From contig NZ_WTCR01000001.1 of assembly GCF_009795715.1 (NCBI RefSeq), positions 124,001 through 188,000 of the forward strand: DNA of 64,000 nt, written 5' to 3'. Positions 25,493-42,671 of the stretch are shown here, in pieces; position 1 is the first letter of the stretch; every line of letters starts with the position of its first letter. The notes under the pieces were generated by a model that was not told the origin of the DNA, did not search any database, and saw only the letters and a program-made list of their open reading frames with translations. Both the position numbers and the translations under genes were made by a program. The stretch comes from Labilibaculum euxinicum. Its GTDB lineage: Bacteria; Bacteroidota; Bacteroidia; Bacteroidales; Marinifilaceae.

Positions 25493-26488
25493 CTATCTGG
25501 TAAGCTTTTTTAATTTAGTCTGATATGACTGTAAATAATTGCGCTTGGTTTTATCATCAAGAAATGAAGCTGCAATTAACTTTTCTACTTTTTCAGAACC
25601 AGAGCTTAATAAATCAAATATCTTTTTTACTTGTTGCTCTTTTAAACCAACCAACTCTGCCAGCTTAAAAAACTGTTTTGTAATTGTTCCTTGTGCAAGA
25701 TTCTTTGGCAACAAACCATCTTCAAGGGCAAAATCACTGTCCTCAATATGTATTCGGCTATTTAATAAGTCATATGCCGGGCTCAATCGAAAATCTCCCA
25801 TTGGAGTTTCCAATAAAGAAAAATTCTTTAAATGGGCATCTCCATTTGAAAAGAGATAATTAAATAATATCAGCCTGAATAATTTAGGTGCTTCAATTTT
25901 ATAAGCCGGCACATTCGCTTGTATCAATTGAAACAAGTCCAAATAATTCCCCTGGTATTTATAATGTTCTCCGTGGGTTTGAGGAGTTCTTCCAGCTAAT
26001 GATGCAAAATCCTCCTGTGCCCACTTGTTTCCATCATCTTTTACATCAAATCGCTTGGTGATATATGATGGTGATCCATTCTTAAAAAAAACCAAAGCAT
26101 TTTCGGCTGTTTCAATTCCATAAACTTGACGAGCAATTTGCATCGTTAAATGCTCATTTGCGGGCATCTGATCAGCCCTATTGCCAACACCAGGAATAGG
26201 TTTTAGAATATAAGCTCCTCGCTCCCCTGGATTAATTAGTCTCAATTTATTTTTGTCAAGCAATACGGAAAACTTTTGCTGAACTCCGGAAATAGACATT
26301 TGTTTTCTGCTATTATCGAATAATTCATCTGTTAGTTGATTACTTGCAGGAGAATCATATGGTAAAACATGATGAACCTTTTTTCCATTAAAAACCCTAC
26401 TTAAACAAGTTCTGCTGTAGGTCTGATAACCTTCTGCCAACGTACCAGGGCAGTATTTAATTTCAAGTAAACTCATTTCATTATTCAA
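25493..26488 (-). CDS. hipT: HipT-like serine/threonine kinase toxin
   Basis: A 331-residue HipA-family kinase that lacks the N-terminal subdomain found in single-chain HipA. Visible are the SIS-type autophosphorylation/gate motif (KQMSISGVQ, Ser 65 and 67), the catalytic loop SNGDAHLKNFSLL and the metal-binding AYDLLNS. In characterised HipBST systems HipT phosphorylates a tRNA synthetase and is blocked by HipS. The 8-base overlap with the upstream gene indicates tight translational coupling. The family assignment is strong; the target is inferred. Confidence 0.9.
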   Translation of the reverse strand: MNNEMSLLEIKYCPGTLAEGYQTYSRTCLSRVFNGKKVHHVLPYDSPASNQLTDELFDNSRKQMSISGVQQKFSVLLDKNKLRLINPGERGAYILKPIPGVGNRADQMPANEHLTMQIARQVYGIETAENALVFFKNGSPSYITKRFDVKDDGNKWAQEDFASLAGRTPQTHGEHYKYQGNYLDLFQLIQANVPAYKIEAPKLFRLILFNYLFSNGDAHLKNFSLLETPMGDFRLSPAYDLLNSRIHIEDSDFALEDGLLPKNLAQGTITKQFFKLAELVGLKEQQVKKIFDLLSSGSEKVEKLIAASFLDDKTKRNYLQSYQTKLKKLTR

Positions 26489-26804
26489 TTTTAATGATTC
26501 GAACAGCTCCTATGGTATCGGTTTTTGCTGTCGTTAACAGCAAACCAAAATAATCATCTGCATCTATTCTCAAAAGTTTGCAGACTACCTGCTTATTTGA
26601 TCCTTCAGGAAGCAGGTTATAGAAAAACGGGAATAAGTATTTTGAATTATACTCCTGTTTTGTTTTAGGTAAAGTCAGACTTATGCCTGGCTTACCATCA
26701 TCTGTCATCCAAAGATCATTGTATCGGAATGTGAATGATGCATCATCATGCTGAGCTAAAATTCCCGCTTCCTTCTCTTTGTACAATACACGAGCCTGTC
26801 TCAT
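26481..26804 (-). CDS. hipS: HipS-like antitoxin (separate HipA N-terminal subdomain)
   Basis: A 107-residue protein equal to the N-subdomain-1 of HipA: MRQARVLYKEKEAGILAQ, LPKTKQEY, the diagnostic FPFFYNLLPEG and a C-terminal DYFGLLLTTAKTDTIGAVRI. In HipBST systems this free subdomain, not HipB, neutralises the kinase. It sits between hipB (4-base ATGA overlap) and hipT (8-base overlap). An alternative is a hipA split by mutation, but the overlaps and intact ends argue for a genuine three-gene system. Confidence 0.87.
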   Translation of the reverse strand: MRQARVLYKEKEAGILAQHDDASFTFRYNDLWMTDDGKPGISLTLPKTKQEYNSKYLFPFFYNLLPEGSNKQVVCKLLRIDADDYFGLLLTTAKTDTIGAVRIIKIE

Positions 26805-29229: not shown

Positions 29230-29850
29230 TCAATATCTTTTTTCGATTATTTTATCTATGATATGTTCAAGTATTTCTTCTGCCAATTCTTTGACACTCC
29301 TGTCTTCAGTTTTTATCACGATGTCAGGATTCTTCGGGCTGATAAAAGGAGAGTTGATGCCTGGAAAGTTTTTAACATCTCCATTTCGGGCCCTTTTGTA
29401 TAATTCTTTTATATCGCGCTGTTCGCAAATATGTAGTGGCGTGTCGATAAATACTTCTATAAAATCATCGCCTATGATATTTTTGGCAAGATCCCGAACA
29501 TCCTCAGTTGGACTGATAAAACAGTTTATTGTAATAATACCTGATTCAACAAATAATTTTGAAATTTCAGAGATACGTCTAATGTTTTCAAGTCTGTCGT
29601 TATCGGAGAAACCGAGATTTTGGGTAATACCGCTTCTTATATTGTCACCATCAAGAATGTTGGAAAAATAGCCAAGTTTGAAAAGTTCTTTTTCCAGTTC
29701 AATGGCAATTGTCGATTTTTCTGACCCCGATAGTCCGGTAAACCAGACTGCTTTTGCCCTCTGATTCAGAACAGATTCCTTGTAAGCACGAGGGACCGTT
29801 TTTTCGAATATGGGGAATATATTTGTTGCTTTTTTCACGATTACCTCCAA
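29230..29850 (-). CDS. cysC: Adenylylsulfate kinase, Walker A altered
   Basis: A 206-residue APS kinase: LDGDNIRSGITQNLGFSDND, RLENIRRISEI, then SPTEDVRDLAK and KELYKRARNGDVKNFPGINS. It would phosphorylate APS to PAPS. The P-loop, normally GLSGSGKS, reads GLSGSEKS: the final glycine is Glu (codon GAA, one transition from GGA). A bulky acid there should disturb ATP phosphate binding. It sits 9 bases after cysH and before the broken cysD, so the substitution may reflect relaxed selection. Confidence 0.88.
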   Translation of the reverse strand: MEVIVKKATNIFPIFEKTVPRAYKESVLNQRAKAVWFTGLSGSEKSTIAIELEKELFKLGYFSNILDGDNIRSGITQNLGFSDNDRLENIRRISEISKLFVESGIITINCFISPTEDVRDLAKNIIGDDFIEVFIDTPLHICEQRDIKELYKRARNGDVKNFPGINSPFISPKNPDIVIKTEDRSVKELAEEILEHIIDKIIEKRY

Positions 29851-29859
29851 TTTTGTGAT

Positions 29860-30540
29860 TTACTCTTTTGGTTTTGATGGTTTAGAATGTAAACCGCATT
29901 CTGTTTTTAATTTTCCTGACCATCTGCCTGAACGTCCTTTCCCTTTTATTGTACAGTGTGTACAGCCAACAGATTCATAACCACTGGCAAAAAGGGGATG
30001 TTCAGGAAGATTGTTTTCTTTAATTATCTTATTCTTTTCTTCCTCTGTCAGGTCTATTAAAGGATGAAATTTTATTATTCCGTCAGCCTCCTGAAAAATT
30101 CCAAAGTCTTCTCTTACATTATTTTGATTCTGCATAAGTCCTGAAATCCAGATTTTATATCCCGATTTTACAGAGGCAAGTGGACCAACTTTATTTACAG
30201 CACAACACAGGTCGGGATCACTTTTCCATACTTTCTCCTTTTTGGTAAAACTATTCTGATATTCATCAGGTTTTATATCAACAACATCAAGTTTATATAG
30301 CTGTTTTAATGTCTCTTTGTACTTCAATGTTTCAGGAAAGTGAAACGAAGTATCCAGAAAATGAACTTTTTGTTGTGGGTTAATACTATTAATAATATGC
30401 AAGAGCAGAATTGAAGACGTTCCAAACGATGATGTAATCATTATTTCATTGGAACTAAAATCTTTATATAACTCATGAATCCTTTCATCAGGCGTCAGTG
30501 GGGAATATTTTGCATTTAATTCTTTAATATTAGCTTTCAT
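29860..30540 (-). CDS. cysH: Assimilatory APS/PAPS reductase with 4Fe-4S motif
   Basis: A 226-residue reductase that makes sulfite from (P)APS. It has the SSFGTSSILLLHII phosphate loop, LDTSFHFPET, paired cysteines in DPDLCCAVNKV and CTHC, and the catalytic Cys in ECGLH near the C-terminus. The CC...CxxC pattern is that of iron-sulfur APS reductases, which do not need APS kinase; this bears on why cysC might decay. It starts after the DUF2061 relic and is co-directional with siroheme genes. Confidence 0.9.
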   Translation of the reverse strand: MKANIKELNAKYSPLTPDERIHELYKDFSSNEIMITSSFGTSSILLLHIINSINPQQKVHFLDTSFHFPETLKYKETLKQLYKLDVVDIKPDEYQNSFTKKEKVWKSDPDLCCAVNKVGPLASVKSGYKIWISGLMQNQNNVREDFGIFQEADGIIKFHPLIDLTEEEKNKIIKENNLPEHPLFASGYESVGCTHCTIKGKGRSGRWSGKLKTECGLHSKPSKPKE

Positions 30541-30615
30541 TTGTTCTGGGATTAGTTATAATATTGTTTATGATTTTAAAAGCCGTTTTTGCATTTGACT
30601 ATATCCTTTGGTAGC

Positions 30616-30818
30616 TTAATACCTCCAGCGAACGCGTGCCCATATTCTTTCATTTGTAAAATAAAGAATAAGCTTCACAACAAAATAGGCAACACCAATA
30701 TGAAAGGCTGAACTGATATTTGAAGTGAACGCGTAGGTAAAACACTCATGGTTGCGAATGTTGCCATAAAGCGATACGAAAGCCCCTTTATTATACTTCT
30801 TTGTTTAGATTCTTTCAT
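30616..30818 (-). pseudogene. DUF2061 membrane protein gene with frameshift
   Basis: From ATG 30818 the - strand reads MKESKQRSIIKGLSYRFMAT then FATMSV. Near the A/T run at 30739-30742 the frame changes to FTYAFTSNISSAFHIGVAYF and ends ERIWARVRWRY at a TAA at 30616. The total length is not a multiple of three; one missing T restores the frame. DUF2061 proteins are small two-helix membrane proteins often found beside sulfate-assimilation genes. It overlaps the 3' end of the siroheme gene by 14 bases. A sequencing error in the homopolymer is possible. Confidence 0.75.
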
Positions 30819-31413
30819 TGTCTATGATAAGATTTGAAGTTATTTTATTTAATTCTCTCACTTTTACAGTGAAATCCGATTTTAGACTGTTTCTAAGCTT
30901 ATTGAGATTATCAAGAACACTCTCCACTTCATCGGGTAAAATGCTTTCAAGAATTTCTCTGAATCTTTTTGAGAATGTTGGAGATTTCCCATTTGTGGAG
31001 ATACCTACCTTTAGATTTCCTTTGGTAACAACAGATCCGAAATAAAAATCGGATAACAACGGCTTGTCGACAACATTTACCAATAGTCGCATTTGTTTAG
31101 CTTCAAGTCTGATTTCGCGGTTTAAGTCTGAATGGTTTGTCGCAATTATCACAATATCTTTATCAATGAGGTCTGAACGATCAAATTTCTTATTTTGAAC
31201 TTTAACATTTGAATGTTTATTTGACAGTTCATAAATCTTAAGTGAAACCTCAAGAGAGACAATCGTAATATTTGCGTCAGGACTGTTTTTTAATAAAAAA
31301 AACAATTTTTCTGTTCCTGCTTTTCCCCCACCAATAATTAAATATTTAACCTTTAGCGGGTTTATAAATATTGGCAACAGGGGATTTATATTTATTTTAT
31401 CCGTCATCTTCAT
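30805..31413 (-). CDS. Precorrin-2 dehydrogenase/sirohydrochlorin ferrochelatase
   Basis: A 202-residue Met8/CysG-N-terminal type protein: Rossmann motif LIIGGGKAGTEKLFFLL, IIATNHSDLNREI, NVVDKPLLSDFYFGS and ISTNGKSPTFSKRFREILES. With CobA next door it completes siroheme for the sulfite reductase. Met 1 or Met 3 could start it. Confidence 0.9.
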   Translation of the reverse strand: MKMTDKININPLLPIFINPLKVKYLIIGGGKAGTEKLFFLLKNSPDANITIVSLEVSLKIYELSNKHSNVKVQNKKFDRSDLIDKDIVIIATNHSDLNREIRLEAKQMRLLVNVVDKPLLSDFYFGSVVTKGNLKVGISTNGKSPTFSKRFREILESILPDEVESVLDNLNKLRNSLKSDFTVKVRELNKITSNLIIDNERI

Positions 31414-31482
31414 ATGTTTATAATTTTCTAGTTAAGGCCATATGAAAGTCGCCAATAAGCACCTCCCTGTGTGTCGAAAGCA

Positions 31483-32295
31483 CTAGTCATGGCTCGTTTC
31501 ATTTTCTTTAATTTGGTTCTGAAGTAAATTGCAATGCAGATATTCACACACGTATTCGGTATGTTGCCTTACAACCTCTCCAATAATTATAATACTTGGC
31601 GTTCCCACATTCTTTTGTTCTACGAGCTTTTCAATATTTTCTATTGTAGAAATGGCCGTTTTCTCATTTGCTAACGAACCGTTTTGTATTACAGCAACCG
31701 GAACTCCTGATTTGTTATTATTCTTAAAAATTTCAACGATCTCGGAAAGTTTATTTCTTCCCATTAGTATAACTATAGTTGCAGATGATTTTGCTGCCAG
31801 TTTAATATCATTAGCCAGTTGATTATTTTGTGTTGTCCCGCTTAAAACCCAGAAGCTTTCGCTGATTCCCCTGCTGGTTAAAGAAATGCCCTTAAGTGCA
31901 GGTAGTGTTGTTGCTGATGAAAGTCCTGGGATTACGGCGACCTTTATTCCATGCAACTCAGCATATTCAGCCTCTTCTTTGCCACGACCAAAAATAAAAG
32001 GATCTCCTCCTTTTAATCGGACTACATTACCATATTTATATGAGTAGTCAACAATTAATTTGTTTATCTCATCCTGAGTGTGACTATGATTATTGGCTCG
32101 CTTACCTACATATACTTTCAGGCTGTTTTTCGGTGCATATTCCAGAATTTCAGGATTAACCAAAGCGTCGTAAAGGACTACTTCAGCTCTTTTAAGTGCA
32201 TTTGTTCCTTTTATACTTATTAGTTCAGGATCTCCCGGTCCTGCACCTACTAATGTCAGAACCGGTTTGTCATATTTATTTGTTTTGGCTTCCAT
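31483..32295 (-). CDS. cobA: Uroporphyrinogen-III C-methyltransferase
   Basis: A 270-residue SAM-dependent methyltransferase making precorrin-2: VGAGPGDPELISIKG near the N-terminus, YDALVNPEIL, VRLKGGDPFIFGRG, GLSSATTLPAL and the C-terminal GTPSIIIIGEVV. It uses SAM, consistent with a SAM riboswitch on the operon leader. It follows the sulfite reductase gene by 9 bases. Confidence 0.94.
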   Translation of the reverse strand: MEAKTNKYDKPVLTLVGAGPGDPELISIKGTNALKRAEVVLYDALVNPEILEYAPKNSLKVYVGKRANNHSHTQDEINKLIVDYSYKYGNVVRLKGGDPFIFGRGKEEAEYAELHGIKVAVIPGLSSATTLPALKGISLTSRGISESFWVLSGTTQNNQLANDIKLAAKSSATIVILMGRNKLSEIVEIFKNNNKSGVPVAVIQNGSLANEKTAISTIENIEKLVEQKNVGTPSIIIIGEVVRQHTEYVCEYLHCNLLQNQIKENETSHD

Positions 32296-32304
32296 GTCTT
32301 TATC

Positions 32305-34380
32305 TTAAAAGTCGATTTCAATAAACTTCCTTGTTTTGCTTATATACTTGTTTGCAAACGCTTTGGCTGGCCTTTGTTTATTAATTAGAAGTATTGTGTC
32401 TTTAAAGCTATTTTCCTTGCTTGTTATCTTTTTACTTGTAATTAAATTATCAAAGTCATTTATTACTTCAATCTCCGTGTTTACAGCAATCTTGTTTTTT
32501 ATAAGAATCGATTTTGCGATTGAAATAAGAGCAGCATAATTATGAAATATTGCATCTGCGTATTCTTCGTTTTCGTAAGCAATATCAGACTCTTCAAATC
32601 TATTTTTTGCCTCATTCGTAAATCTTTCTGCCCAATTGATATCAACTACTGGGGCAGTTGCAATCTTATTAGTTTCAAACTTTTTATCGTTTCCCCAGTC
32701 ATAAAAATCACTTTCAATAAGATTTGTTTTAATTGTTAAGGGAGTAAGAAGCTCAAAATAAAACGTCTTAGTTTTTTCGTTATAGTATTCATTAAATGTT
32801 TTATCGTCCAAATTATTCTTAGTGAAATCTGAAAGTATTATCCTAAGTGCATCAGGTACCCTCTTGGCAGGTATTTTAATTACTTTTTCACTAAAGACAC
32901 CATTGCCGTCACCTGTTATACCTCCGCCTAACATTATTTGGCTTCCTGGAGCTTGTCTACCATCAACAGAAAATATTGTTCCGTGAAAACCAATTGATGC
33001 TATTGACTGTTGCCCACAAGAGTTTGGACATCCGCTTAGTTTAATCCTTAAATTCTTATCTCCGATAAGCTCAGGAAATTCATCAATAATCACTCTTTCA
33101 ATTTCTCCAGATAATTTGCTTGTGTTTGTTATGGCTCTGACACAAGTGTCTGTACCCGGACATGATGTCACATCTGCAGTGCTATCGGCTCCAGGCTCAG
33201 CCAATCCAATCTCGTTTAGCAAATTGAAAATTCCTTTTAAATTCTCATTAGTTACAAACTTCAGAATAAGTCCCTGAGTAATGCTTAGTCTGATATCATC
33301 AGCCGCGTATAGCTTTACAATACCGGCTAATTTTCTAGCTGTATCGCTATCGATGTTTCCCATCGTCAGCTTAATTTGAATGGCATTAAATCCTTCCTGC
33401 TTTTGTTTCGATACATTCGTTTGTAACCACAATAAATATTTGTCTTCATTTAAAATTTCGATATCTTTTGTATTGCCTGCTTTTAAATTGGGAACAATTT
33501 GATTGTAAGATTCTCTGCTAATAACGAATTTCTCATGTTTAACGGCTATTTTTTCCTCATTTATTAATTGAATTACAAGCGAAAGACCAAGCTCTTTAAT
33601 TAGAAATTTCAATCTCGATTTTGCTCTGTTGTTTCTTTCTCCATATCTGTCGAATACACGAATAACAGCTTCAGTGAAGGGTATCAGTTCGTCTTCCGGA
33701 ATAAATTCTGTCGCAACATCGGCTAGTTTTGGAGAGACTCCCAGCCCGCCACCAATCATGACCTTGAAACCTCTTTTTTCTTCTCCTGAAATAATCTTAA
33801 TTTTCGGAATAAAACCAAGGTCCTGAATAAAACTCAGTCCCTCGTCTTCTTCATTTGATGAAAAAGAGAATTTTAATTTTCTTCCCAGTTTTTGCCCAAA
33901 AGGATTCCACAATATGTATTCGTAAAGCGCCTGAGCATAGGGTGAAACGTCGAATATTTCTTTTGGATCAATTCCGGAAAAAGGGGAGGCTGTTATGTTT
34001 CGAACAGTATGACCACAGGTTTCTCTAATTGTTAATCCAACTTTATCAAGTTCACTCCAAATAGCTGGAGTATCTTTAATTTTTACTGAATAAATCTGAA
34101 TATCCTGTCTTGTGGTGATATGTAACATGCCATTAGCGAATTGGTCTACAAGTTCAGCGATTTTAGTCAGCTGTTGTCCGGTTATTCTTCCATAAGGAAT
34201 CTTAATTCGAACCATCTGTACTCCTTTTTGACGCTGACCATGAATACCTCTTATGGAGTGAAATCCTTTGAAACTCTCTTGGTCAATACTGCCGTTTTTA
34301 AATAATTGGATTTTTGATTCCAGTTCTTTTATATCATTTTTTACTGATTGGGATGGATTAGTCGAATTTAGAATAGTCAT
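32305..34380 (-). CDS. Siroheme sulfite/nitrite reductase with C-terminal HEPN-like domain
   Basis: A 691-residue hemoprotein. Two ferredoxin-like and two siroheme half-domains fill residues ~1-570. The 4Fe-4S/siroheme ligands are in TSCPGTDTC (about 404) and SGCPNSC (about 448), with RETCGHTVRNI upstream. Residues ~580-691 are an all-helical HEPN-like extension (NWAERFTNEAKNRFEESDIA, NYAALISIAKSILI). In this operon the role is sulfite to sulfide. It is the first large gene behind the SAM-I/Cys-leader region and therefore the main target of that control. Nitrite reductase is the alternative, disfavoured by context. Confidence 0.9.
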   Translation of the reverse strand: MTILNSTNPSQSVKNDIKELESKIQLFKNGSIDQESFKGFHSIRGIHGQRQKGVQMVRIKIPYGRITGQQLTKIAELVDQFANGMLHITTRQDIQIYSVKIKDTPAIWSELDKVGLTIRETCGHTVRNITASPFSGIDPKEIFDVSPYAQALYEYILWNPFGQKLGRKLKFSFSSNEEDEGLSFIQDLGFIPKIKIISGEEKRGFKVMIGGGLGVSPKLADVATEFIPEDELIPFTEAVIRVFDRYGERNNRAKSRLKFLIKELGLSLVIQLINEEKIAVKHEKFVISRESYNQIVPNLKAGNTKDIEILNEDKYLLWLQTNVSKQKQEGFNAIQIKLTMGNIDSDTARKLAGIVKLYAADDIRLSITQGLILKFVTNENLKGIFNLLNEIGLAEPGADSTADVTSCPGTDTCVRAITNTSKLSGEIERVIIDEFPELIGDKNLRIKLSGCPNSCGQQSIASIGFHGTIFSVDGRQAPGSQIMLGGGITGDGNGVFSEKVIKIPAKRVPDALRIILSDFTKNNLDDKTFNEYYNEKTKTFYFELLTPLTIKTNLIESDFYDWGNDKKFETNKIATAPVVDINWAERFTNEAKNRFEESDIAYENEEYADAIFHNYAALISIAKSILIKNKIAVNTEIEVINDFDNLITSKKITSKENSFKDTILLINKQRPAKAFANKYISKTRKFIEIDF

Positions 34381-34424
34381 GTTTTTAATTTATTAAAAAA
34401 ATATTTGGATGTTTGATTTTATGC

Positions 34425-34457
34425 AAAAAAAAAGCCTTCCGAGTATCCGGAAGACTT
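34425..34457 (-). terminator. Attenuator terminator 2 of the sulfur operon
   Basis: On the - strand AAGTCTTCCG / CGGAAGGCTT (one G-U) forms a 10-bp stem with a 6-base loop, then nine T. It begins 24 bases after the second leader peptide stop and 45 bases before the sulfite reductase start. Its CCGGATA (34450-34444) is exactly complementary to TATCCGG (34520-34514) in the leader peptide gene, giving a mutually exclusive structure. Confidence 0.85.
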
Positions 34458-34481
34458 TACTATAAGTGATATGTTTTGATT

Positions 34482-34625
34482 TTAGAACATAGTACAATCA
34501 TAGTTATAATATCCCGGATAGGTCAAAATAATGCGCATACAACAGCACATACAGCAAATGCAGCACATCATTGTGTTAGAAGAATCTATACGGTTTTTAA
34601 CTATGTTTTGTATTGTACTTTTCAT
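34482..34625 (-). CDS. Cysteine/methionine-rich leader peptide 2
   Basis: A 47-residue reading frame from ATG 34625 to TAA 34482. It begins MKSTIQNIVKNRI and its centre is MMCCICCMCCCM: seven Cys and four Met in twelve codons (codons 19-30). Such a run has no plausible structural role in a tiny protein but is ideal for stalling a ribosome when Cys-tRNA or Met-tRNA is scarce. An intrinsic terminator follows at once. The antiterminator half TATCCGG lies about 18 bases beyond the last clustered Cys codon, so a stalled ribosome would leave it free, while a ribosome finishing the peptide would cover it. Classical transcription attenuation is inferred. Confidence 0.8.
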   Translation of the reverse strand: MKSTIQNIVKNRIDSSNTMMCCICCMCCCMRIILTYPGYYNYDCTMF

Positions 34626-34668
34626 CTAAATTTTTATTTAGCGGATGTTTCTTTTGAAATTTAACTGT

Positions 34669-34704
34669 AAAAAAAAAAGCCTTTCTGATGACACAGAAAG
34701 GCTT
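34669..34704 (-). terminator. Attenuator terminator 1 of the sulfur operon
   Basis: On the - strand a perfect 11-bp stem AAGCCTTTCTG / CAGAAAGGCTT with a 6-base loop is followed by ten T. It starts 33 bases after the first leader peptide stop. GACAAAGG in the peptide gene (34749-34742) can pair with CCTTT plus GTC of this hairpin as a weaker antiterminator. Confidence 0.9.
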
Positions 34705-34737
34705 AGTATATAATTATTTAAATTACACGTTATGAGC

Positions 34738-34821
34738 TCATCCTTTGTCGATAGGTATGTACATGCAGCAGCAACAATTGTTCTGTTTCAATTTCACGAT
34801 ATGTAATTTTACTTTTCTCAT
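34738..34821 (-). CDS. Cysteine-rich leader peptide 1
   Basis: A 27-residue frame from ATG 34821 to TGA 34738, starting MRKVKLHIVKLKQNN, then four consecutive Cys codons (TGT TGC TGC TGC, 34776-34765), Met and YIPIDKG. A strong intrinsic terminator follows at 34704-34669. The Cys run, short length and terminator are the textbook signs of an attenuating leader peptide responding to cysteinyl-tRNA. It is the first of two such units ahead of the sulfite reductase gene. Confidence 0.82.
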   Translation of the reverse strand: MRKVKLHIVKLKQNNCCCCMYIPIDKG

Positions 34822-34851
34822 TTTTGTCTAAGGTGTCTGATGTTGTTTTAG

Positions 34852-34882
34852 CAACAATATGTTAATGTTTTCGGAATGCAAA
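34852..34882 (-). promoter_or_regulatory. Possible internal promoter before leader peptide 1
   Basis: On the - strand TTTG (34882-34879), a 19-base gap and TATTGTTG (34859-34852) match the Bacteroidota TTTG/TAnnTTTG promoter with one mismatch. It would start transcripts near 34845, after the riboswitch, letting the Cys attenuators act alone. Confidence 0.4.
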
Positions 34883-34971
34883 TCTTTTTTTATGATTTCA
34901 GGTATAATCCCCAGAGTTTAAATAAAGTGTTGCGATCGAAAGTGTTGAATGTGTTTTTTATCTCTAATTTA

Positions 34972-35073
34972 ATTTATATTTTCCATAAGCTATCGGATCA
35001 GGACTTAGCAGCTTAACTGGTGTCAGGTTGCAAGAGTTTCATCGAACCTGTCTCTCCACTCTTCTGTATAAAT
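34972..35073 (-). promoter_or_regulatory. SAM-I (S-box) riboswitch
   Basis: The - strand reads AGAGTGGAGAGACAGG, TTCGATGAAAC, TTGCAACC and then GCTGCTAAGTCCTG. These are the conserved S-box core: GGAGRGAC, the kink-turn GATGAA, GCAACC and GTGCTAA-TCC positions. A closing P1 helix can form from ATTTATA (35073-35067) and TATAAAT (34978-34972). No obvious terminator follows within 100 bases, so the expression platform is unclear. It lies downstream of a consensus promoter and upstream of the two Cys leader peptides of the sulfur operon. Confidence 0.85.
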
Positions 35074-35101
35074 CAACTATTTCTAATTGAATTTGACGAC
35101 A

Positions 35102-35133
35102 CAAACATAAAGTGCTTTCACCGTCTTTCCAAA
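35102..35133 (-). promoter_or_regulatory. Main promoter of the sulfur-assimilation operon
   Basis: On the - strand TTTG (35133-35130), 20 bases, then TATGTTTG (35109-35102): a perfect match to the Bacteroidota -33/-7 consensus. Transcription would begin about 20-25 bases ahead of the riboswitch P1 helix. Confidence 0.75.
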
Positions 35134-35340
35134 TTCATAACAATTTAATGATGAATCGAAATCCACTTATAGTTAAGGATTCTAGTCAACCATGCTAGCT
35201 CACCAATGCAGCAACCCCCTGTATTAGCACCGATTTTAAGTGAAAAAAAACAAGATCTTCATGCATTTTAAAAAATAAACTAAAAATCTTTATTTATTTT
35301 GAATTTAGATAATGGCAGGCAAACTAAAAATTTGACCAAA

Positions 35341-35530
35341 CGTCTCTTCTTTGAAAAGAAAAGGCGAAGCCTTATCAGATTGGGAATTGAAGCTGGGCAA
35401 GTCTATGCTTGGAGTAGAACTCAAAAGGGTAGATAGGCGATTGCTCAGAGTCCAATTCTTATTACTACAATTACATTGGAAAGGTTGAAGAAACGCGGCT
35501 ATGTTTCTATGTCAAAAATTGTATTTACAG
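35341..35530 (+). pseudogene. C-terminal fragment of a group II intron maturase
   Basis: The + strand reads KRRSLIRLGIEAGQVYAWSR then TQKGR-stop-AIAQSPILITTITLERLKKR, GYVSMSKIVF. This is the tail of a Bacteroidota group II intron reverse transcriptase/maturase (WSRT-KGxWAIAQSPIL motif). The conserved Trp codon has become TAG, and everything upstream is missing. No domain V stem was found after it, so the intron is dead. Confidence 0.75.
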
Positions 35531-35540
35531 GTACGGTCTT

Positions 35541-35713
35541 GTGTATGAAACGTAGCGTATAAAAAGACGCTAACTTTTCGGATAAACACAGAGCCGAATT
35601 TTTATATTTTGTTTTTAATTTATCAATCTTAAAAGCCAAATTTAAAAATTTGGCGAACTTCGTAAATATACACAAACCTCTCTAAAAGCCTATATTAGCT
35701 ATGTTTCATACAC
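35541..35713. repeat. Inverted repeat with nested palindrome
   Basis: GTGTATGAAACGTAGC (35541-35556) recurs inverted as GCTATGTTTCATACAC (35698-35713), 15 of 16 matching. Between them lies a perfect palindrome GCCAAATTT-AA-AAATTTGGC (35635-35654). The arrangement resembles the end of a small mobile cassette or an attC-like fold, but no defined recombination core was identified. Confidence 0.5.
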
Positions 35714-38129: not shown

Positions 38130-38495
38130 CTAATTTTCTTGGGAGTGGTATTTTGCACCTGTATCAATTTCCCACTGAGTTCTCCACTCCACATTTTCAT
38201 GAATATATTTGACTTCGTTTTCAAGTAAGAGATAATGTCCTTTGATGTGTTCCAAAAAGTCAGGATTCAATTTTTTCATTCTTCGCCCAAGAGTTGAAGT
38301 GGAAATATCTAATTTCATGGCAAGCTCTTTTCGGTTCATTGTTTTGTATTCCATTTTTTGCAGTCTTGTTATTTCTGAATGAGTTTTTTTCTTGTTTGTG
38401 CTCTTTTTAGAGTGTGCCCTTGTATAAGTCAGAGAAAACAACTTAGCATTGTACAAAATAGGTGTGTTCAACAGAAAGTCCTTATTTGGTAGCAT
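38130..38495 (-). CDS. Small HTH protein beside the relaxase
   Basis: A 121-residue frame starting 5 bases after the relaxase stop. The core MNRKELAMKLDISTSTLGRR looks like a helix-turn-helix. An internal ATG at 38354 (MEYKTMNRKEL) could be the real start, since the first 47 residues are low-quality. It is probably a regulator or accessory mobilization protein of the element. Confidence 0.55.
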   Translation of the reverse strand: MLPNKDFLLNTPILYNAKLFSLTYTRAHSKKSTNKKKTHSEITRLQKMEYKTMNRKELAMKLDISTSTLGRRMKKLNPDFLEHIKGHYLLLENEVKYIHENVEWRTQWEIDTGAKYHSQEN

Positions 38496-38500
38496 GAGTT

Positions 38501-39406
38501 TTATTTTCTTTTGGATTTTCTCTTTAATCGATATTGCTTAGAAATATCTTTAGTTAAGTCCTTCTTTCGAATTTGCAACAATAATTCTTTCATAAATGCA
38601 CTTTTAAAGCCCTGACTAAATCTTTCATCTTTACTGGTGGCAATTCTCTCTTTTATTGATGTCTTTTTTTCCACCTGATAAAAATTCGGCTTCTCTTTAA
38701 ACTTCGACAGGCGAATCGGATAACGAATTACTTTTCCATTCCCATCGGTCACAAGCACAATATGTCCTCTACCCGATTTTCTGATTTCCACATTAAATAG
38801 TTTTAAGGTTTCATTATACAGTGCTTTGGAATTTACCTCCGACATTTGGTTGATATGATAGAAAAGGCTCTCCAGGCTTTGTTTGATGTTTCGGCTTTGG
38901 GCTGAAAATTTAAAAACAGGTTTCTCTGATCTTTTACGATTATCCAAGAGATGTCTAAGTTCTAATTCTTTAATGAAATTCTGAGCCTTCTGCCGCTCAT
39001 GATTGTCCTTGACTTTCTTACCGCTTTGTTTGTCGATCCGAGTGGATACGATGTGAAAATGAGTCCTCTCCAAATCTTTGTGTTTGTAGACGAAATACGT
39101 CTGATTGCCATAGCCCATGTGTTGCATAAACTGGTCAATTTCCTTTCGAATGATCGGATTATTTAATTTCAGAGAATCATCTGCAGATGGATTTACGGAG
39201 ATGTGAAGGCATTTGTTTTTCACTCTAGGATTTAGCTTTTCAATGTTCGTAAGCTCTTTCAAACGATGGCTTTTATCGAAAAAAAAGGGATTAATAGCTT
39301 TGGTATTCCTGCTGTGAAAAAAAACGGCTGCTTTCTGCTCCACCTTTTTTTCGTTATAAAGGAAGGCATTCTCGGTACTGGCAGTTTGATGGATAACGAT
39401 AACCAT
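38501..39406 (-). CDS. mobA: MobP-type relaxase/mobilization nuclease
   Basis: A 301-residue relaxase that nicks oriT. It carries CLHISVNPSADDSL and the metal-binding HFHIVSTRID, the HxH motif of MOBP-type relaxases in Bacteroidota elements; a basic C-terminal tail (KQYRLKRKSKRK) follows. The usual relaxase length is about 300-420 residues, so this is near the short end. It sits 17 bases after mobC. Together they form the relaxosome. Confidence 0.85.
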   Translation of the reverse strand: MVIVIHQTASTENAFLYNEKKVEQKAAVFFHSRNTKAINPFFFDKSHRLKELTNIEKLNPRVKNKCLHISVNPSADDSLKLNNPIIRKEIDQFMQHMGYGNQTYFVYKHKDLERTHFHIVSTRIDKQSGKKVKDNHERQKAQNFIKELELRHLLDNRKRSEKPVFKFSAQSRNIKQSLESLFYHINQMSEVNSKALYNETLKLFNVEIRKSGRGHIVLVTDGNGKVIRYPIRLSKFKEKPNFYQVEKKTSIKERIATSKDERFSQGFKSAFMKELLLQIRKKDLTKDISKQYRLKRKSKRK

Positions 39407-39423
39407 GAGTGAAGCTTTTGCTT

Positions 39424-39801
39424 TTATTCAATAACATCCATGTACTTTTGCAAAACGGAAAAACAGTTTCGAAGTTCCTGCAAAACTTTTAGAAAGACTT
39501 CGCGATCCGAAGCTCCAAATTGATGAACCTGACCGGAATTGATATTCTTGGAAACCTGGTTGAGATTCACGCCAATTTTATTGAGCTGGTAATCCAGTTT
39601 TTTGGTGATCTGAACAAAGTCTTCACTCACCTCAATTTTTCGGATTTCTCGTTTCTTCACCAACTTTGCCCTGCAAAAATCACTCAGCGTTCGGTAGCCT
39701 TCCTTTTTGCATCTTTTTAGAAGTAGTTTCTTTTCCAGTTGGGTCAAACGAATCCGAACTCCATGTTCCAACTTATCGTATTCTTCTGTTTTAGGTCTCA
39801 T
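39424..39801 (-). CDS. mobC: MobC-like relaxosome accessory protein
   Basis: A 125-residue DNA-binding protein. The start is ATG 39801 because a strong AAGGAGG lies at 39815-39809, seven bases upstream; the TTG at 39828 would bury it. The N-terminal RHH-like part (VRIRLTQLEKKLLLKRCKK, YRTLSDFCRAKL) and the conserved LNKIGVNLNQVSKNINSG segment are typical of MobC proteins, which help the relaxase open oriT. A candidate oriT lies directly upstream. Confidence 0.87.
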   Translation of the reverse strand: MRPKTEEYDKLEHGVRIRLTQLEKKLLLKRCKKEGYRTLSDFCRAKLVKKREIRKIEVSEDFVQITKKLDYQLNKIGVNLNQVSKNINSGQVHQFGASDREVFLKVLQELRNCFSVLQKYMDVIE

Positions 39802-39833
39802 ATCTATTCCTCCTTGTCCTATGGACAATCAAG

Positions 39834-39895
39834 CTTTTCATCCCCAGATGAAAAGTCCCTGCCGGAAGGCACAAGAGTTTTTGTGGAACAAAAAC
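39834..39895. other. Candidate origin of transfer (three adjacent hairpins)
   Basis: Immediately upstream of mobC-mobA lie CTTTTCATC/GATGAAAAG (39834-39855, 4-base loop), TGCC/GGCA (39860-39871) and GTTTTTG/CAAAAAC (39877-39895). Inverted repeats next to relaxosome genes are the usual setting of oriT. The nick site is not identified. Confidence 0.45.
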
Positions 39896-40019
39896 ACATC
39901 TTGCATTCCCCTCTTTACATTTTTTTAGTCGTCAAGTTTGAAGCTCCTTTTTTCAGAAAAGGGAAGACCACCAAACAAATGGATTTGTCCTCCCTCACCT
40001 TAACTCAACCACGATTATC

Positions 40020-40697
40020 TTATCCTACTTTCTGTTTTGTTCCTTTCTTTTTTTCGGTCTTCTGCTCCCTCTCCTTTTCTTTCTCCTGTTTGAAACCGGA
40101 AAAATTGATGCTCCGATTGGCTGCATCCACCTGAAGAGAGGCCGAAAATTTCTTTCCGTTTTTCCCGGTCATCCCATCCAGATGGATTTTCTTTCCAGCT
40201 GCCAATTGCTGTTTTTGTTCTTCGGAAAGACTTGCTCCCTTGATCTTTTCCGGTACCCGGATGTGCTTGGAACGAAGTGGAATCAGCTCATTGGTTTTGG
40301 CATCCAAAGACAGATAGTAATTGTCCTTTTCTCCCTTCTGATTGGTCATCTCAATGGTCTTTCCCAAATGTTTGTCTTCCAAAAGAGCCGTTTTTTCTTC
40401 CTTGGTAAATTTGTGTCCCAGATATTCATCGGGAATGTGCAGGCGTTGAATGGGATGCACCTTTACGTTCACGCTGCCATCTTCTGCCTGCTGCAACCTG
40501 ATTTTCGCAGGAATCCGATACTTCTCTTCATTGATGTTGGCATTGACCGTATAGAGTTTGGCAGACCGGAAGCCATTTAAGAAATCTTTCAGTTCCTGAC
40601 TTTCCATGCGGTCCACAAAATCTTTTTTGATCCCGGCTTTCTCCAGCTTTTCAAAAGGGATCTCTTCCTTGGTAATTCTTGTTGTTTGTTCCATCAT
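40020..40697 (-). CDS. DUF4099/DUF3945-domain protein of conjugative elements
   Basis: A 225-residue soluble protein with an N-terminal DUF4099-like part (EIPFEKLEKAGIKKDFVDRM) and two DUF3945-like repeats (IPDEYLGHKFTKEEKTALLE; GASLSEEQKQQLAAGKKIHL). The tail is highly charged. It is regularly found beside mobilization genes in Bacteroidota ICEs; its biochemical role is unknown. It is followed by the oriT/mobC region. Confidence 0.8.
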   Translation of the reverse strand: MMEQTTRITKEEIPFEKLEKAGIKKDFVDRMESQELKDFLNGFRSAKLYTVNANINEEKYRIPAKIRLQQAEDGSVNVKVHPIQRLHIPDEYLGHKFTKEEKTALLEDKHLGKTIEMTNQKGEKDNYYLSLDAKTNELIPLRSKHIRVPEKIKGASLSEEQKQQLAAGKKIHLDGMTGKNGKKFSASLQVDAANRSINFSGFKQEKEKEREQKTEKKKGTKQKVG

Positions 40698-40739
40698 TTC
40701 AAATTTTACTTGTTAGCATTCTACTTACACAGGCTTCAC

Positions 40740-42671
40740 TTATTGCGTATTTCTTTTACTTTCCAATAAGATTTTCTGTATGTCTTCACAGATTTGGCTG
40801 CGATTGTTTTCCAGCACAGCTTCCACATTATCAAATTGATAAATATCAGGGATGGACTGATAGTACTTCTCCTCTGTTTTCACCTGACGGGCATCCACCT
40901 GAATCAAACTGTTGAAATTCTTTTGGCCGACCTCCTCTCCAAAATTATCGGCGATCTGTCCCACCATCACTCCTTGCGGCAGGGTGGCAATTTTCCCTTC
41001 CGGAACCAGATAATCCATCTGGGTGGAGAAGGAAGTGGATTGTGTGTTTCTGTTGATCGTAACGGACTGTCTCTCTTGCAGAATTTTACCCATTCGGCTT
41101 TGAATGAACCTGGCCGTATCCCCAACCGACTGACCGGCAAACACATTCCCGATGTTGGTCAGAATGGCATTGGCCTGCTCCTTCCCGTAGTCCCGGATCA
41201 GCTGATCGATGGTCTGCATGCCCAGCAGGGTGGAAATCCGGTTGCTTCGGGCCGTTGCAATCAGGGTATCCAAACCCCGAAAATAAATGGTCGGCAGCTC
41301 ATCAAAAATCAAAGAGGATTTGCGCTGCCCCTTTCGGTTCATCACCTTCAGCATTCTGGTGATGTAGAGGGAAAGTACGGCTCCGTACATTTCAATGCGA
41401 AGCGGATTGTTGGCCAGGCAAATTACTTTGGGCCGTTGGGGATCATTGATGTCCAGTGAGAAATCATTCCCGGAACAAATCCAGTAAATCTCCCGGCTGC
41501 TGATCTTGGAAATGGCAATCTTTAAACTCCCCAACTGTCCCTCCAGCTGTTCACTGGCTCCTCTATGGTGCGCATTGAGAAAAGGGTTGATGATGTTCAC
41601 CACATCTTTTTCCTGTGAAAGCACTTCAAACAGATCATCATAGTCCAGCTGCAGAAGTTCTATGGCATGAGGCAGGGTGCAATACTGCCCATTCTGGTAG
41701 CGCTTCAAAAACCAGATGACCGCGGCAAAAAAGGAGACGGCAGATTCGGAAAAGAACTCCCCTTGTTTTCGGATCCACTCCCGATTCAAATTGTAGAGAA
41801 CTGTTCTGGAAGATTCAAAGGCATCAATGGGACTTTCCATGAGTTCCGGGGCCAGGGGATTGCATCGATAGGATTTCCGGATGTCATCAAAGTTGATGAT
41901 GTAAAAAGCCGAAGCGGCCGGCAGTTTCCGGTTCTTTTTGGCCTTCAGAAAATGATTGTAAGCCACCTCAGACAGATCCGGAAATTTAAAATCATACACA
42001 CACATGCAAAAGCCCTTGTTCAAGTGCTGTTTGATAAAAGGAAGTACCACAGAAAAGGATTTTCCCGATCCAGGTGTTCCGATCACCATGCTTCCCCGAA
42101 ATGGATTGACCACATTGATCCATCCCTGTTTCACTTCTCCCTGGTACTGAAACAGACTCGCCAGATTGACCGAATATTCATTTTCTTTCAGCTCCTGGTT
42201 CTGTGGAAAACTTTCATTCTCCTTGTTGAAACGATCTTTCATCAGATTTACATTGATCAGTTTGGAAATGTTGTCAAAGGCAATGTTCAGAAGCACAAAG
42301 CCCCAAAAGGAAAACAAAAGATAAAGTCCTGCCTGCCATTTGACCAGCAGCAAGCTTCCCCAGTACAAAAGCAAGCCAAACAGAACCTGAAAGATCAGAG
42401 TGGAAATCTTCAGTTCCCTGTCCTTTTTGGCTTTGGTGCCGATGCAGGTGATGATCAAAAACACCAGGCAGACCGTTTTGGAGTAAAGTGGCGAACTTAA
42501 AAATTCAAGATTCATCAGTTTGGTGAACAGGGCTTCCAATTCTTCCTGGTAGATCCCTGCGCCTTTAAAAAAAGTCATTTGGCTCAGGTACAAAGACAGA
42601 ATCAAAAGGGAGTAGGAAAAAAACCGAAATCCCTCATGTAGCTTTACCAATTCTCTGGATTCATCACTCAT
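40740..42671 (-). CDS. VirD4/TraG-type coupling protein
   Basis: A 643-residue type IV coupling ATPase that brings the relaxase-DNA complex to the channel. Four hydrophobic N-terminal segments (about 15-150) are followed by Walker A in VIGTPGSGKSFSVVLPFI (about residue 195), Walker B in SSLIFDELPTIYF, and IGNVFAGQSVGDTARFI. It directly follows traN with a 20-base gap, so traO, traP and traQ homologues of CTnDOT are not present here. Confidence 0.9.
   Translation of the reverse strand: MSDESRELVKLHEGFRFFSYSLLILSLYLSQMTFFKGAGIYQEELEALFTKLMNLEFLSSPLYSKTVCLVFLIITCIGTKAKKDRELKISTLIFQVLFGLLLYWGSLLLVKWQAGLYLLFSFWGFVLLNIAFDNISKLINVNLMKDRFNKENESFPQNQELKENEYSVNLASLFQYQGEVKQGWINVVNPFRGSMVIGTPGSGKSFSVVLPFIKQHLNKGFCMCVYDFKFPDLSEVAYNHFLKAKKNRKLPAASAFYIINFDDIRKSYRCNPLAPELMESPIDAFESSRTVLYNLNREWIRKQGEFFSESAVSFFAAVIWFLKRYQNGQYCTLPHAIELLQLDYDDLFEVLSQEKDVVNIINPFLNAHHRGASEQLEGQLGSLKIAISKISSREIYWICSGNDFSLDINDPQRPKVICLANNPLRIEMYGAVLSLYITRMLKVMNRKGQRKSSLIFDELPTIYFRGLDTLIATARSNRISTLLGMQTIDQLIRDYGKEQANAILTNIGNVFAGQSVGDTARFIQSRMGKILQERQSVTINRNTQSTSFSTQMDYLVPEGKIATLPQGVMVGQIADNFGEEVGQKNFNSLIQVDARQVKTEEKYYQSIPDIYQFDNVEAVLENNRSQICEDIQKILLESKRNTQ

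Follow-up and report, generated by a model that had tools for sequence, protein, structure and literature searches.

Introduction

The trp, his and leu operons are controlled by the classical amino-acid leader attenuators. Leaders rich in cysteine have been described from other settings: mycobacteria possess polycysteine leaderless short ORFs (Canestrari 2020, as cited in PMC13236596), and translation attenuation is cited for the Cys ORFs of M. smegmatis (PMC13236596). Cys leaders were also described in Actinobacteria, those of Mycobacterium being presented there without conserved terminator hairpins (Seliverstov 2005, PMC1262725), and the uORFC-8-2 motif is located upstream of cysS in Rhodobacterales (Brewer 2021, PMC8632094). 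In Streptomyces lividans the metL leader precedes metN, a methionine importer gene (PMC8079986), and the mgtCBR operon of Salmonella is equipped with tandem attenuators (Lee and Groisman 2012, PMC3641672). The transcriptome of F. psychrophilum hints at attenuation by leader peptides upstream of amino-acid operons, cysteine being unnamed in that part of the account (PMC9723704); leader-like sORFs are mentioned in general terms in the accessible text of PMC7366714, and that of PMC2965389 holds nothing on Bacteroidetes. A literature search, thin in its coverage of subscription papers, found no Cys attenuator in Bacteroidota and, with the same incomplete coverage, no report of two serial attenuators for one amino acid; the view of a preliminary description of the present locus, that a serial Cys then Cys/Met attenuator in Bacteroidota is undescribed, agrees with this outcome.

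Here we report on a stretch of 64,000 nucleotides from Labilibaculum euxinicum (contig NZ_WTCR01000001.1, positions 124,001 to 188,000), referred to below as the window, in which two Cys-rich leader ORFs precede a sulfite reductase operon. We argue from its sequence and that of its relatives that they are very probably ribosome-mediated transcription attenuators arranged in series on one mRNA that sense the supply of Cys and, probably, of Met. Because they recur in related bacteria, the pair would very probably constitute a two-step switch for sulfur assimilation under cysteine shortage.

The leader region of the sulfite reductase operon

On the minus strand the promoter motif is followed by a SAM-I aptamer, leader 1, terminator 1, leader 2, terminator 2 and the sulfite reductase start at 34380. 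A second copy of the sulfite reductase within the family, in genome G050, is 99% identical. The features are as follows.

35102-35133, minus strand: Bacteroidota-type promoter motif TTTG-N20-TATGTTTG; identical in G050
34971-35074, minus strand: SAM-I (S-box) riboswitch aptamer, RF00162, 57.8 bits (gathering score 44.4)
34738-34821, minus strand: leader ORF 1, 27 codons, CCCC run, short tail; MRKVKLHIVKLKQNNCCCCMYIPIDKG, then stop
34735-34749, minus strand: putative antiterminator segment A1 (GACAAAGGATGAGCT), overlapping the leader 1 stop; p=0.050 against shuffles
34677-34704, minus strand: intrinsic terminator 1; 5' arm and loop about 34703-34688, T run to about 34669
34482-34625, minus strand: leader ORF 2, 47 codons, long tail; MKSTIQNIVKNRIDSSNTMMCCICCMCCCMRIILTYPGYYNYDCTMF, then stop, with the run MMCCICCMCCCM
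34512-34520, minus strand: putative antiterminator segment A2 (TATCCGGGA); p=0.010 against shuffles
34461-34503, minus strand: predicted accessory hairpin between A2 and terminator 2, containing the leader 2 stop codon
34431-34458, minus strand: intrinsic terminator 2, 9 T
32305-34380, minus strand: sulfite reductase with NIR_SIR domains and a C-terminal HEPN domain (Pfam), first gene of the operon
31483-32295, minus strand: tetrapyrrole methylase, uroporphyrinogen methyltransferase-like (Pfam)
30805-31413, minus strand: siroheme synthase-like NAD-binding protein (Pfam)
29860-30540, minus strand: PAPS reductase, cysH-like (Pfam)
29230-29850, minus strand: adenylylsulfate kinase (APS kinase), cysC-like (Pfam)

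Most of what the preliminary description had read from these letters was borne out. Leader 1 contains four consecutive Cys codons, as seen in MRKVKLHIVKLKQNNCCCCMYIPIDKG, and the leader 2 run comprises seven Cys and four Met; both are trailed by intrinsic terminators, whose T runs number 10 and 9 if the T paired at the stem foot are included. The distance from leader stop to terminator, given as 25-35 bases, holds for leader 1 (33) and is slightly shorter in leader 2 (23). TATCCGG (34520-34514) and CCGGATA (34450-34444) are exactly complementary, GACAAAGG of leader 1 is able to pair with the CCTTT and GTC of terminator 1, and the two antiterminator halves begin 16 nt (leader 1) and 19 nt (leader 2) beyond the final Cys codon of each run. 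The downstream gene is indeed a sulfite reductase by its Pfam NIR_SIR and NIR_SIR_ferr matches. Its HEPN domain, at residues 584-656, scores 25.9 bits against a Pfam cut-off of 22, and nearly all homologues of the class align past residue 680. Elsewhere in the window, two adjoining ORFs (25493-26804, minus strand) resemble a HipA-type protein, one its N-terminal part and the other its kinase part.

The Cys-run ORF, the intrinsic terminator and the competing antiterminator of a classical amino-acid attenuator can thus all be recognised, as predicted elements, in the sequence. Five terminator-like sites occur on the two strands of 34300-35600 against 0.4 expected from shuffles, three of them being neither terminator 1 nor terminator 2. 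The pairing of A with the terminator 5' arm is stronger than in shuffles for leader 2 (p=0.010) and borderline for leader 1 (p=0.050; p=0.064 in G050), and the region between A2 and terminator 2, where the accessory hairpin is predicted, folds with z=-2.16. No leader or T-box family of Rfam 15 reached its gathering score over the two modules, the best being Phe_leader with 27.4 bits where 55 are needed, and the SAM aptamer is the only match of the window. At lax Rfam thresholds 34380-34960 gave 22 weak matches, every one below its gathering score, which we regard as chance.

Recurrence of Cys leader modules across Bacteroidia

A sulfite reductase homologue is present in 94 of the 396 sampled genomes of the class (the genome of the window included), and 95 upstream regions were compared, namely those of 93 other homologues, the window and G050, some of which stop at contig ends (e.g. 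L012, L032, L068). As a strict module we counted an ORF that starts with ATG, is no longer than 60 codons, has three or more Cys in six codons and is followed by a hairpin below -8 kcal/mol and a T tract 40-80 nt past the stop; this range was chosen after viewing leader data and was the same for all residues and both strands. Such modules number 49 in 37 of the 95 regions, distributed over 15 families, with none on the reverse strands. When the same count was made for every residue, the forward strands gave 50 ORFs in 37 of the 95 regions for Cys, 26 in 21 for Met and at most 13 for each of the others, and the reverse strands none for Cys and 15 for Ser, the highest there. Cys runs and terminators, whose absence from relatives would have counted against the proposal in the preliminary description, are found in many families, and so is the alternative pairing.

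The remaining 58 regions have no strict module, and in families f131, f134, f171 and f183 none of the sampled regions has one; L043, L094 and L097 look doubtful. A leader with two clustered Cys before a terminator was found in 11 further regions, selected by hand under a rule that was applied to the forward strand only; the matches in L016, L066 and L067 and the far-upstream extra ORFs of L044, L050 and L058 were dropped as chance.

Similar leaders also precede cysC-cysD operons. Among the 30 cysD loci inspected (cysD is present in 115 of 197 genomes) six carry one Cys leader with a terminator each (L121, L128, L130, L131, L135, L137), and five of these six genomes also have a cysI leader. There is thus an apparent Cys-attenuator regulon of cysI and cysC-cysD operons, and the system may be an RNA-based regulon, more than a single switch. 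Some of the cysI operons start with an aldo/keto reductase-like gene and that of L023 with a peroxiredoxin-like gene, the families being judged from sequence.

Predicted alternative pairing of the leader RNA

For each module the segment from the last Cys codon to the terminator (A) was paired with the terminator 5' arm and loop (B) and compared to dinucleotide shuffles of A. Over the 49 modules the mean z is -2.62 and the combined z -18.4, the latter overstated because modules within one family are related; with one module drawn per family (15 families) the median combined z is -9.9. Individually, 33 of the 49 modules reach p<0.05 and 18 reach p<0.01, so that 16 fall short of the former level, and cruder hairpin calls on the same modules give 30 of 49 at p<0.05 and a combined z of -14.2. 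The control pairing of A with the terminator 3' arm yields +0.9. Native A ranks among the best 5% in 13 of 49 modules when compared with A of other families (KS p=1e-10), and A therefore tends to covary with its own B. Leaders held out from this set behave alike: the six cysC-cysD leaders give a combined z of -7.1 (5/6 at p<0.05) and eleven two-Cys leaders -5.4 (4/11), together 9 of 17.

Where the pairing is significant (33 modules), A begins 8 to 32 nt beyond the last Cys codon, with a median of 12 nt; by the size of its footprint, a ribosome held at that codon would have its leading edge near this point. The RNA separating A from B also folds more strongly than its shuffles (-5.7), and the accessory hairpin predicted there encloses the stop codon in 21 of the 49 modules. 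For a hairpin spanning the Cys run and A, the combined z goes beyond shuffles in second (-4.9) and single leaders (-3.2) and fails to do so in first ones (-1.4).

Two modules in series

Two strict modules follow one another in 12 of the 95 regions, belonging to seven families (f1, f129, f135, f139, f143, f154, f161), so the serial arrangement proposed for the window recurs. Their geometry is ordered. The first leader is the shorter-tailed in all 12 pairs, with 6-27 nt from the last Cys to the stop against 24-57 in the second, a gap that in f129 amounts to merely 3-6 nt; the stop and the T tract are 55-69 apart in first leaders and 47-52 apart in second ones, ranges that stay separate. Extending the flank of L014 (as L141) makes a first module appear; extended in the same way, L143 and L144 still have one and L142 reaches the contig end. 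In L020 a second leader is present and was excluded by the length rule. A promoter motif lies 3-35 nt before the ATG of 11 of the 37 most-upstream leaders and of none of the 12 second leaders, against a background of 0.96% of positions, and both modules should therefore be carried on one RNA.

That a single attenuator works in the window and the other is a relic appears unlikely, even though 25 of the 37 module-bearing regions contain just one strict module and the leader 1 pairing of the window is borderline. In the alignment of the window with G050 every Cys codon is kept, the fourth of leader 1 with a TGC/TGT change and those of leader 2 with none, and terminator 2 has a C-to-T difference that still allows a G-U pair; both modules are thus preserved in ORF, Cys codons and terminator in the two copies, though the copies are very close. 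The relic reading is also at odds with a first/second geometry that differs in the same direction in 12 regions of seven families, and with the strong first-leader pairing of L011 (z -6.2), L013 (-5.8), L032 (-5.8) and L023 (-4.2).

The probable signal: cysteine and methionine

Met accounts for 100 of the 194 non-Cys residues near the Cys runs and for 65 of 986 outside, an excess that holds in 14 of 15 families. A succession of 'Cys then Cys/Met', as the preliminary description put it, is consequently not specific to the window. Because Met is enriched around the runs, we consider that both Cys and Met are probably read by the leaders. A mixture of Cys and Met also suits Cu(I) ligands, and the same enrichment could be taken to mean that the nascent peptide senses metal, thiol or sulfide by ligand binding rather than Cys-tRNA supply. 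We regard this as very improbable: the Cys residues differ widely in how many they are and how they are spaced (CCCC, MCMCC, CCMMC, CC), the recognised downstream genes are those of sulfate assimilation (by Pfam in the window, judged from sequence elsewhere) with none for metal handling, and Met is itself a sulfur amino acid. Reading of Cys, and probably Met, by the translating ribosome is the interpretation that we retain.

The promoter motif and the SAM-I aptamer

The motif at 35102-35133 is the only full match, within 1.5 kb upstream of the sulfite reductase, to the Bacteroidota promoter consensus (TTTG-N17-23-TAnnTTTG). The SAM-I aptamer, overlooked in the preliminary description, lies on the same strand and the same predicted transcript. 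It may be decaying, because it differs from the G050 copy (L106) at two positions, one of them inside the GGTGC stretch conserved in the Rfam consensus, and scores lower (57.8 bits against 70.4). A SAM-responsive terminator was looked for before leader 1: no terminator-like site was seen between 34971 and leader 1, and the fold of 34730-35090 is no better than shuffles (z -0.21).

The aptamer upstream invites the view that the terminators are constitutive, or driven by the SAM riboswitch alone, and that the Cys ORFs are short functional proteins. This too is very hard to sustain: no SAM aptamer reached the gathering score in the 38 loci scanned (20 and 18) among the 93 other cysI loci, and many of the 38 do carry Cys modules; by eye, the peptides share little across families outside the Cys/Met run; and the A/B pairing would be left without a role. 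The remaining alternative, incidental TGY repeats in AT-rich upstream DNA, can be set aside almost entirely, for although short patterns are easily found in one window and the looser two-Cys rule yields a few apparent chance matches (L150, L016, L066, L067), none of the 95 reverse strands has a strict module, no other residue matches the Cys count, and the pairing tests, held-out leaders included, and the promoter test speak against it.

Other loci, too, combine a SAM aptamer and a Cys leader. By eye this is so in 6 of 50 SAM loci (L189, L191, L194, L199, L183, L175), where 20 of the 50 had been picked from chosen families; five of the six come from these 20, and L175, with a CC leader, from the 30 best SAM loci. 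An O-acetylhomoserine sulfhydrylase-like (metY-like) gene follows in L189, L191 and L194 and a cysH-like gene in L199. In the three metY-like loci the leader mechanism may be different, because no T-tract terminator was seen by eye after the leader. The broader notion that SAM-I aptamers of Bacteroidia generally precede a sulfur-amino-acid leader was discarded, as none of the 30 best SAM loci satisfied the Met or Cys ORF rule. The only other SAM-I match of the same genome, L149 (G000 C4:17083-17190, minus strand), directly precedes a Met-rich short ORF (MKKTQINYNQQAHQEQNFTLQSSTMLMMRMQQMMRMI, then stop), followed by an O-acetylhomoserine sulfhydrylase-like gene.

Distribution and probable mobility of the operon

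With the own genome counted, the sulfite reductase is present in 1 of 9 genomes searched in the genus and in 2 of 56 in the family. In the order it was matched in 7 of 295 genomes, the six others having 31-36% identity, and a scan of genome contigs that used this protein alone yielded a single distant relative. The window has relaxase-, mobilization- and TraG-like genes beside the operon (38130-42671) and a conjugation-like gene run is found in G050 (L106), these names being assigned from sequence. Because relaxase-/TraG-like genes adjoin the operon in both genomes, the operon and its leader look like the cargo of a conjugative element. When window 29230-34380 is set beside L107 and L138, the last gene of the window operon is cysC, and the G050 copy runs on into cysD and cysN. 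The window genome has a separate cysC-cysD-cysN on this contig, at a distance of about 163 kb, and therefore possesses two cysC and obtains cysI from the island copy only.

A tree of 31 sulfite reductases, made up of the window and G050 copies and 29 of the 93 others, places these two copies together on a deep branch of their own. On this tree 5 changes of the tandem label are needed, 4 of them forced by supported branches, and the tandem state is therefore old or has arisen more than once.

Proposed mechanism

The leaders, the terminators, the alternative pairing and their recurrence and order are supported by sequence and statistics; stalling, readthrough, a two-stage gain and any input from the SAM aptamer are what we infer for the following model. 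RNA polymerase would initiate near 35100 and a ribosome would translate leader 1. With ample Cys-tRNA (and probably Met-tRNA) the ribosome would reach the stop and cover or block A1, terminator 1 would fold and transcription would end. A ribosome stalled on the Cys run would leave A1 free ahead of it to pair with the terminator 5' arm, and the polymerase would pass. Leader 2 would repeat the same test before the sulfite reductase operon. The two geometries suggest different ways of blocking A: in leader 1 the finishing ribosome would sit on or beside A itself, and in leader 2 it would lie within the loop to be closed by A:B pairing, A being otherwise sequestered by a protector hairpin. Long-tailed leaders would need an accessory hairpin or steric exclusion because a ribosome at their stop codon leaves A uncovered.

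More speculatively, and as a possibility to which we give rather less than even credence, the whole leader may form a three-stage sulfur gate of SAM aptamer, short-tailed and long-tailed Cys/Met attenuator that turns the operon on only if SAM, Cys and Met are all low, gate and operon travelling as conjugative cargo and the attenuator pair being an ordered two-design device of sulfate assimilation in Bacteroidota.

Serial attenuation of this kind offers a concrete candidate answer to how sulfate assimilation is controlled in many Bacteroidota, with cysteine (and methionine) being counted through ribosome stalling. Placing two attenuators for one amino acid behind each other, with unlike geometries whose order is the same in seven families, would also be a natural route to deeper repression.

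Comparison with known systems

Cys leaders from other bacteria and tandem attenuators with different signals were already known; serial Cys attenuators in Bacteroidota appear to be new, as far as reports could be found. With the SAM-I (S-box) riboswitch RF00162 the locus shares the aptamer at 35074-34971; it differs in that no terminator comes right after it, and the two Cys modules come next. As in the mycobacterial and actinobacterial leaders, Cys-run ORFs precede cysteine genes (Seliverstov 2005, PMC1262725; PMC13236596), whereas, unlike in the mycobacterial ones as presented there, intrinsic terminators with matched antiterminators are found here. The uORFC-8-2 motif shares the Cys-Cys leader and a terminator-like stem with a U run, but it is described as a single element before cysS, in another phylum and with two Cys codons (Brewer 2021, PMC8632094). 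The metL leader likewise mixes Met and Cys (..RCMCRRMCAF); it is described as a single leader without a clear terminator, for which the authors emphasise Met and Thr, not Cys (PMC8079986). 

An architectural parallel to one operon under two leader ORFs in series is mgtCBR, whose leaders are reported to sense different signals, ATP and proline, in contrast to the Cys runs in both leaders here (Lee and Groisman 2012, PMC3641672). With the trp, his and leu operons the locus shares a leader ORF with a run of regulatory codons, an intrinsic terminator and a competing antiterminator just past the predicted position of the stalled ribosome; unlike them it has two such devices one after the other, both for the same amino acid and of two geometries whose order is constant, and its Cys runs are mixed with Met.
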